Below, piece by piece: positions 11,986 to 19,432 of a stretch of 27,147 nucleotides of DNA. The DNA is from an uncultured Duganella sp. (GTDB taxonomy: Bacteria; Pseudomonadota; Gammaproteobacteria; Burkholderiales; Burkholderiaceae): positions 1 to 27,147 of the forward strand of contig CAMLSG010000059.1 in the NCBI GenBank assembly GCA_946482635.1. Reading direction: 5' to 3'. A program made the translations under genes and the position numbers. Below the pieces are notes generated by a model that saw only the letters and a list, made by a program, of their open reading frames with translations, was not told the DNA's origin and did not search any database. The first letter of the stretch is position 1. Every line of letters starts with the position of its first letter.

Positions 11986-13221
11986 ATGGCCAGCATTGCC
12001 CCCAACCCTTCGACTGTCGCGCAGCAGGACGCGCCGGGCGGAAGCAACACCAGCGCATTGGTGATCGTGACCATACTGTTCTTCATGTGGGGCTTGATCA
12101 CTTCCCTGAACGACGTCCTGATCCCGCACTTGAAATCGATCTATACGCTGACCTATGTACAAGCGATGCTGGTGCAGTTCTGCTTCTTTGGCGCGTATTT
12201 CATCGTTTCGATGCCGGCGGGCGCCTTGATTCGCCGCATCGGCTACCAGAAGGGCGCTGTAGCCGGCCTGCTGATCGCCGCCTGCGGTTGCGCGCTGTTC
12301 TATCCTGCTTCTTTTGGCGGTTATGGCCTGTTTCTGCTTGCCTTCTTCGTGCTGGCATCGGGCATCACGATCCTGCAGGTGGCGGCCAATCCCTATGTAA
12401 CGGTACTTGGGGCGGCCCGCACCGCATCAAGCCGGCTGACGCTGACCCAGGCCTTCAATTCGCTCGGTACCACCATCGGCCCGTCTGTCGGTGGCTTGCT
12501 GATCCTGTCAGTCGCAGGTGCGGCGGCGGCAACGGTGCGCGGACCTTATATTGGACTGGCGGCTGCGCTGGCGCTGCTGGCCGTGCTGTTCTACGCGGCC
12601 CGGCTGCCGCAGATCACGGATAGTGAGGACGTCGCGCTGCCGGGCGAGGGGCATGGTTCCGCATGGGCGCATCGCCACCTGGTGCTGGGCGCCATCGGCA
12701 TCTTCCTGTATGTGGGCGCGGAAGTCAGTATCGGGAGCTTCCTGATCAACTTCCTCGGCGAAGCGCATATTGCAGGGCTGTCGCATGCCGACGCGGCGCA
12801 TTACGTCAGCATCTATTGGGGCGGCGCCATGGTCGGCCGATTTATCGGCTTCGCCGTGATGCGTGTAGTCAGCCCGGGCAAGACTTTGGCCTTCAATTCC
12901 CTGCTGGCGATTGCGCTGGTGCTGGCTGCCATCTTCGGCACGGGCAGCATGGCGATGTGGGCCATTCTGGCAGTTGGCTTGTGCAACTCGATCATGTTCC
13001 CGACCATCTTCAGCATGGCGCTGAATGGGCTGGGCAAATACACAGGCCAAGGATCCGGCATCCTGTGCATGGCCATTGTCGGCGGCGCACTGGTGCCATT
13101 CGCGCAGGGCGCACTGGCAGATTCAGTCGGTGTGCAGGCGTCCTTCATGCTGCCGGCCGCCTGCTACGCTTTCATCCTTTACTTCGGCGCCAAGTACTCC
13201 TCCATGTACGCAGCGCAGTAA
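11986..13221 (+). CDS. Sugar MFS transporter (GluP/FucP-type glucose/galactose permease)
   Basis: The 411-residue inner-membrane protein has about twelve membrane segments. It carries the FHS-family features FFMWGLITSLNDVLIPHLK (residues 26-44), AGxxIxRxGYQKG after helix 2, and LQVAANPYVTVLG (about 129-141), typical of the L-fucose/glucose-galactose:H+ symporters including Brucella GluP. Its ATG follows the GH3 stop with no gap, with AGGAG inside the end of the GH3 gene. It would carry the monosaccharide released by GH3 into the cytoplasm. The last 43 bp overlap the end of the convergent halogenase-like gene, and no terminator separates them. Confidence 0.93.
   Translation: MASIAPNPSTVAQQDAPGGSNTSALVIVTILFFMWGLITSLNDVLIPHLKSIYTLTYVQAMLVQFCFFGAYFIVSMPAGALIRRIGYQKGAVAGLLIAACGCALFYPASFGGYGLFLLAFFVLASGITILQVAANPYVTVLGAARTASSRLTLTQAFNSLGTTIGPSVGGLLILSVAGAAAATVRGPYIGLAAALALLAVLFYAARLPQITDSEDVALPGEGHGSAWAHRHLVLGAIGIFLYVGAEVSIGSFLINFLGEAHIAGLSHADAAHYVSIYWGGAMVGRFIGFAVMRVVSPGKTLAFNSLLAIALVLAAIFGTGSMAMWAILAVGLCNSIMFPTIFSMALNGLGKYTGQGSGILCMAIVGGALVPFAQGALADSVGVQASFMLPAACYAFILYFGAKYSSMYAAQ

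Positions 13222-19432: not shown

Follow-up and report, generated by a model that had tools for sequence, protein, structure and literature searches.

A gene module of a TonB-dependent receptor, SapC, a predicted Cupin_8 oxygenase and a flavin-dependent halogenase in Duganella: a candidate system for polypeptide modification

Introduction

Flavin-dependent halogenases of the type of BrvH and Xcc4156 possess an open active site and do not halogenate free tryptophan; peptides were hence proposed as their substrates (PMC7336383, PMC5945002). In vitro, free indole and its derivatives serve as substrates of BrvH and the Xanthomonas halogenases, whose native substrates were stated in 2020 to be unknown (PMC7336383). 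Tryptophan inside a protein is dihydroxylated by QhpG, which works in the cytoplasm ahead of export (PMC7876137), and MibH acts on a lanthipeptide (PMC5945002, PMC8269204).

The DNA analyzed here, referred to as the window, is a complete stretch of 27,147 nucleotides from an uncultured Duganella sp. (contig CAMLSG010000059.1). It harbors a halogenase of this group in an operon headed by a TonB-dependent receptor.

Results and discussion

Organization of the operon

The operon consists of four genes.

16484..19432, minus strand: TonB-dependent receptor, TIGR01782 (TonB-Xanth-Caul), 982 aa, heading the operon; 653 bits, cut-off 310
15712..16419, minus strand: SapC family protein, PF07277, 235 aa; 222.5 bits, cut-off 28.9
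14715..15728, minus strand: Cupin_8 (FIH/JMJD5-like) protein, predicted Fe(II)/2-oxoglutarate oxygenase, 337 aa; PF13621, 236 bits
13179..14702, minus strand: flavin-dependent halogenase, HAL1 type, 507 aa; PF04820, 625 bits

The start of SapC was set to the ATG at 16419 according to the alignment of its relatives; the longer ORF listed begins at 16563. A sequence-only reading had proposed these families and coordinates, intact catalytic residues and a tight coupling of the genes, and profile matches and alignments agree with it throughout. According to the coordinates, receptor and SapC genes are separated by 64 bp, SapC and cupin genes overlap by 17 bp, and 12 bp lie between cupin and halogenase genes; the four genes presumably form one transcript. 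The 3' end of the halogenase gene overlaps a convergent MFS gene by 43 bp. The receptor comprises plug and barrel, scores above the TIGR01782 cut-off, and yielded a structure model (mean pLDDT 88.3) whose top structural matches are TonB-dependent receptors. The absence of NRPS, PKS, scaffold and flavin reductase genes, also claimed beforehand, holds for the scanned window proteins, a set that leaves out the ORF 25663-26595 and short ORFs.

The halogenases

The window halogenase belongs to PF04820 and shows the features of the BrvH/Xcc4156 group, namely the GGGTAGW FAD motif, the catalytic Lys and Glu, and WxWxIP. Among solved structures, Xcc4156 is the closest, followed by 9LUQ and BrvH. Lys84, W268, W270 and Glu342 are identical in 82/82 aligned rows of HAL1 (window counted), and a second halogenase type, HAL2, retains the same four residues in 68/68 rows. 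Judged by these relatives, the window enzyme looks like an active, halogenating one. Beyond these alignments, 69 of the 75 distinct halogenases in loci of the survey genomes (see below) retain K, W, W and E. Five of the six exceptions are degenerate paralogues in clusters with several halogenases, and the sixth was found in locus L093.

These five halogenase-like paralogues (L121, 5480-6943; L125, 7353-8978; L128, 8260-10011; L132, 8444-9964; L135, 11138-12670) have lost the catalytic Lys and Glu. They adjoin two to three intact halogenases and a receptor, and in three of the five cases also a cupin. It is possible that they are pseudo-enzymes or that they perform a different chemistry.

The oxygenases

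In the Cupin_8 protein, H157, D159 and R172 are present in 78/78 rows and H241 in at least 97% of them. It thus carries the HxD...H iron triad and the basic 2-oxoglutarate ligand of JmjC/Cupin_8 proteins, and would be expected to use Fe(II) and 2-oxoglutarate. Strong Cupin_8 matches number 19 in a set of 12 genomes: 16 lie beside a halogenase, one beside a receptor alone (L280) and two beside neither (L278, L279).

In the same genomes, nine of 12 matches to DUF6445 are located within approximately 3 kb of a halogenase, the three distant ones being L275, L276 and L277, the weakest. The signature HxD...H...RxT, which is invariant in an alignment of four rows, occurs in 15/15 distinct DUF6445 sequences (the profile was built from four). 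Because all 15 sequences possess this signature, DUF6445 is predicted to be another Fe(II)/2-oxoglutarate oxygenase; if true, the family would gain its first biochemical hypothesis. Two different oxygenase families therefore recur beside halogenases in these 12 genomes. In five loci, DUF6445 directly follows HAL1:

L108, 10315-11031: DUF6445
L116, 3488-4201: DUF6445
L101, 10678-11508: DUF6445
L037, 11376-12227: DUF6445
L173, 187-906: DUF6445

L108 represents a six-gene form with the order receptor-HAL2-SapC-cupin-HAL1-DUF6445.

Recurrence of the module

Eighty related loci were fetched by similarity to HAL1, and 77 of them hold SapC. The order SapC-cupin-HAL1 is present in 75 of these 77 loci, the other two having no cupin, and HAL2 is additionally found in 67. 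The complete order receptor-HAL2-SapC-cupin-HAL1 occurs in 59 loci; elsewhere, the receptor sometimes lies past the end of the contig. HAL2 is missing in the window and in L001, L002 and L065, and present in the close kin L003 and L080. Gene set and order recur in Oxalobacteraceae, Sphaerotilaceae, Steroidobacteraceae, Lysobacteraceae, Alteromonadaceae, Porticoccaceae and Sphingomonadaceae. A plasmid-borne example was found on the large plasmid of Sphingobium sp. RAC03 (L271, 4137-16193), where receptor, SapC, cupin and halogenase are followed by GH16, LacI, MFS and GH3, a gene set pointing to the use of beta-glucan.

Neighboring genes were examined in four of 15 plasmid loci and in some loci of the survey genomes. 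According to the enzyme names, from which the glycan types were taken, halogenase-receptor pairs reside beside enzymes for unlike glycans: GH16, GH3 and GH43; amylase and GH97; or GH95 or fucosidase.

Linkage to receptor clades

The sequence-only reading had named random association of these families as a result that would speak against a common system. Such randomness did not occur in the survey, which covered ten of 16 genomes with halogenases and 104 strong TIGR01782 receptors, weaker ones being left out. Within 5 kb of a strong receptor, 41 of 47 halogenases were found, where 1.8 were expected. Of the other six, two lie at approximately 6.1 kb, three are distant, and one is on a contig without a listed receptor.

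A receptor tree was calculated from 146 of 203 distinct receptors (fragments below 750 aa and the majority of the first 80 loci were omitted). Considering all linkage labels, 22 changes were counted on this tree versus 60.6 after shuffling; the unlinked label changed 15 times (shuffled mean 48.1) and the receptor-SapC-cupin label five times (27.8). All 35 SapC-linked receptors fall within one clade of 41, which also includes four receptors without a linked partner and one with the cupin only; some of the contigs concerned end nearby. Two further clades contain 27 of the 29 receptors that have a halogenase without SapC, and linkage is absent in a weakly supported group of 29 receptors. Within genomes, the distance between receptors correlates with the distance between their nearest halogenases (r 0.33, 75 pairs; 31 of 5000 permutations as high), and in comparisons across genomes the nearest halogenase belongs to the nearest receptor in 23 of 44 cases. 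One genome (G194) has halogenases beside six different receptors. Clusters of two to four halogenases are shared among several receptors, not one each, which speaks against a receptor-dedicated module.

According to linkage counts, tree labels and distance correlation, receptor, SapC, cupin and halogenase form a module that is not random and tracks the receptor clades. An operon simply inherited as a unit could also give rise to such linkage and to such a correlation of distances.

SapC

The model of SapC has a mean pLDDT of 94.1, and its comparison to solved structures gave no clear match, which proves nothing. Among 200 genomes of Pseudomonadota, 72 possess SapC and at least 16 a full halogenase (>80 bits), 15 of these together with SapC (Fisher 9e-7, kinship ignored). 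No full halogenase (>80 bits) was found in the other 57 SapC genomes among the candidates scored; at most seven candidates were scored per genome, and the halogenase counts are thus lower bounds.

From SapC listings, 40 loci were selected by hand. According to the profiles used, for which L100 was too divergent, 14 of them are part of operons with a receptor or halogenase and 24-25 have neither of these. In L093, SapC lies 3.5 kb from the halogenase-like frame without catalytic residues, and L111, counted among the loci without a partner, shows a weak receptor match 4.4 kb away. Since so many SapC loci have neither receptor nor halogenase, SapC has a role beyond the module; it is not tied to it. 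A function as substrate adaptor, suggested in the sequence-only reading, is a guess. In three lone-SapC loci (L097, 5932-7809; L098, 6041-7894; L099, 5525-7228), the SapC domain is followed by approximately 330-370 residues without a Pfam match.

These lone SapC loci, together with receptors of the SapC clade that have no linked halogenase, would fit an explanation in which all these genes are ordinary sugar-utilization genes, co-regulated with receptors and lacking any joint function. We regard this as quite improbable, since set and order recur over seven families from Oxalobacteraceae to Sphingomonadaceae, the catalytic residues are constrained, and two different oxygenase families are joined to halogenases.

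The sugar regulon

Genes for SapC, a cupin (Pass1) and halogenases appear in published sugar regulons. In the window, the plus-strand neighbors of the operon together constitute a beta-glucoside-type regulon, and copies of the palindrome TGGAAACGTTTCCA lie at or in front of several genes.

2729..6997, plus strand: sugar ABC transporter (solute-binding protein, two permeases, ATPase); profile matches
7014..8045, plus strand: LacI-family regulator; family matches, presumed reader of the palindromes
8127..9494, plus strand: GH1 beta-glucosidase; TIGR03356 above cut-off
9505..11985, plus strand: beta-glucosidase-like protein; GH3-type NCBIfam matches, all below cut-off
11986..13221, plus strand: glucose/galactose MFS transporter, gluP subfamily; profile matches
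19671..20471, plus strand: polysaccharide deacetylase-like protein, oriented divergently to the operon; profile matches
2956..2969, unstranded: palindrome, 1 mismatch; close to where the solute-binding protein probably starts, within the longest ORF listed
8093..8106, unstranded: palindrome, 1 mismatch; precedes GH1
19478..19491, unstranded: palindrome TGGAAACGTTTCCA, perfect; candidate LacI-type operator upstream of the receptor
19584..19597, unstranded: palindrome TGGAAACGTTTCCA, second perfect copy; between receptor and deacetylase genes
19672..19685, unstranded: palindrome, 1 mismatch; at the listed start of the deacetylase ORF

At up to three mismatches the window contains six sites, where 0.61 were expected from shuffles, and the two perfect copies are located just upstream of the receptor gene. 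Of 72 SapC-linked receptors (window counted), 54 have a site with no more than one mismatch around their start; among 2000 randomly drawn stretches of equal length from the first 80 loci, the share is approximately 3%. The palindromes are presumed to be bound by the LacI-family regulator. With receptor, inner transporter, degradative enzyme and regulator, the window has the gene content of a carbohydrate utilization (CUT) locus, by which it is predicted to function in induced carbohydrate uptake. Adjoining the sugar regulon, a papain-like cysteine protease with a signal-like start (1340-1921, minus strand; Pfam matches C39 and C70) is encoded.

A small aromatic compound, which enters with a plant or algal glycan or is freed from it, might be halogenated and hydroxylated for detoxification or as a signal. 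The beta-glucosidases within the window regulon and the activity of BrvH and the Xanthomonas halogenases on free indole and its derivatives in vitro (PMC7336383) are consistent with this, and an imported molecule would be accessible to cytosolic enzymes. Such a substrate is nevertheless unlikely in our view: halogenase-receptor pairs occur in loci for unlike glycans, no aromatic-degradation gene was found among the scanned window proteins, six receptors have halogenases in G194, and receptor and halogenase distances correlate. An imported aromatic glycoside, one of the substrates suggested in the sequence-only reading, became less likely for the first of these reasons. Because the loci serve unlike glycans, their common factor is the receptor and not an aromatic sugar conjugate.

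Search for a modified receptor residue

Trp and other receptor columns were compared with halogenase linkage, and no Trp proved specific to linked receptors. W336 is present in 35/35 SapC-linked, 15/29 other linked and 29/80 unlinked receptors, and W509 in 32/35, 15/29 and 21/80, respectively; other pairs of columns score equal to or above W336/W509. According to the secondary structure modeled for the receptor (model residue = protein residue - 43), W336, W509 and W629 are situated at or just past strand ends beside long loops, which would face outward.

Two residues were considered as halogenase targets and rejected. Trp263, absent in the window clade, which lacks HAL2, was striking as a HAL2-dependent site when this clade was compared to its two nearest kin, and the pattern failed over 74 loci. 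It is present in 46/63 loci with HAL2 and in 4/11 without (one-sided Fisher 0.023, kinship uncorrected), and the rule is broken in 21 of 74 loci (17/63 HAL2 loci without Trp263 and 4/11 HAL2-less loci with it). W509 occurs in 32/32 receptors of the tree with SapC and HAL1 and in 0/3 with SapC and HAL2 alone. The latter three receptors are divergent, two of them being sisters, and W509 also occurs in 21 of 80 unlinked receptors; for these reasons the pattern was not taken as proof.

Proposed function

Our tentative first choice is that the enzymes represent a receptor-dedicated modification module, whose most likely polypeptide substrate is the precursor of the cognate receptor before export. 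A sugar derived from beta-glucan would lift the repression, and receptor and enzymes would be produced together. In the cytosol, SapC might hold or present a polypeptide; the halogenase, supplied with FADH2 by a housekeeping reductase, might add bromine or chlorine to an indole side chain that is exposed, and hydroxylation of a residue might fall to the Fe(II)/2-oxoglutarate enzyme. Candidate sites are aromatic residues at the tips of outward loops of the receptor precursor. Once modified, they could tune the stacking of sugars, the resistance to proteases or the recognition by phages or bacteriocins.

Halogenase, cupin and SapC show no export signal by eye. This argues against a modification with a target in the outer membrane, and a modification of the receptor would have to precede export. 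The cytosolic location is no obstacle, because QhpG acts on a protein Trp before export (PMC7876137). Precedents, namely QhpG and, in BrvH and Xcc4156, the open active sites, favor a polypeptide substrate. This might also be a polypeptide other than the receptor: a partner of the TonB or ExbD kind, an enzyme that the locus encodes for secretion, or a peptide that escaped annotation, with the receptor sharing only the regulation. QhpG and MibH are enzymatic precedents for this as well, acting on a protein and a lanthipeptide, respectively. We consider it rather improbable, since the operon, as judged from the coordinates alone (64 bp, an overlap and 12 bp), leaves little space for a precursor peptide gene, and a shared partner needs no halogenase paralogues across different receptors. 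Owing to the unlike glycans and the QhpG precedent, the receptor was ranked first, with the small aromatic compound and other polypeptides behind it.

The joint protein-modification system proposed in the sequence-only reading is partly supported: the module, the preserved catalytic residues and the peptides proposed as substrates of the nearest characterized enzymes agree with it and strengthen the idea of a system, whereas no receptor Trp specific to halogenase linkage was found. Modification of a protein is a plausible and well-founded hypothesis. A broader proposal is more doubtful, though worth considering: several sugar receptors per genome would each be served by halogenases together with Fe(II)/2-oxoglutarate oxygenases of one or two kinds, which halogenate and hydroxylate residues of the outward loops before export, and this would be the native task of the BrvH/Xcc4156 group. 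If this holds, the enzymatic halogenation of proteins would be a common trait of polysaccharide-feeding bacteria. With the group assigned to defined clades of receptors, the question of its substrate narrows to a few envelope proteins.

Comparison with known systems

Among 5.39 million papers of the open-licence part of PMC, none naming SapC and tryptophan halogenase, with or without TonB, was found, nor one naming SapC, TonB-dependent and cupin; co-mentions of tryptophan halogenase and TonB-dependent do occur. The CUT loci of Xanthomonas and Caulobacter resemble the window in receptor, inner-membrane transporter, glycosidases and regulator; in contrast, the available main text on these loci never mentions halogenase, SapC, Pass1 or cupin (PMC1790865).

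The cupin residues 154-262, including HxD...H, match FIH (E 2.6e-20), one of the JmjC protein hydroxylases together with JMJD5. A difference is that the 2-oxoglutarate-binding Lys of FIH, K214, aligns with Arg172 of the cupin. QhpG, LodB and GoxB are likewise flavoproteins oxidizing Trp inside a protein, whereas the window enzyme retains the Lys and Glu of halogenases; as a peptidyl-Trp monooxygenase of the QhpG/LodB type it was rejected, with NCBIfam scores of 24.5 bits (cut-off 240) and 22.6 bits (cut-off 400).

The literature on Xcc4156 and BrvH differs in context, as TonB, SapC and cupin are absent from the available text of PMC5945002 and PMC8269204, and TonB, operon and gene cluster from that of PMC7336383. 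The enzymes themselves are much alike: the window halogenase aligns with Xcc4156 (PDB 6Y1W) over 491 residues with a single one-residue gap (768 bits), and the catalytic residues of Xcc4156 and BrvH (6FRL) are retained. Owing to this nearly gapless alignment to 6Y1W, an open active site and short loops are expected in the window enzyme as well.
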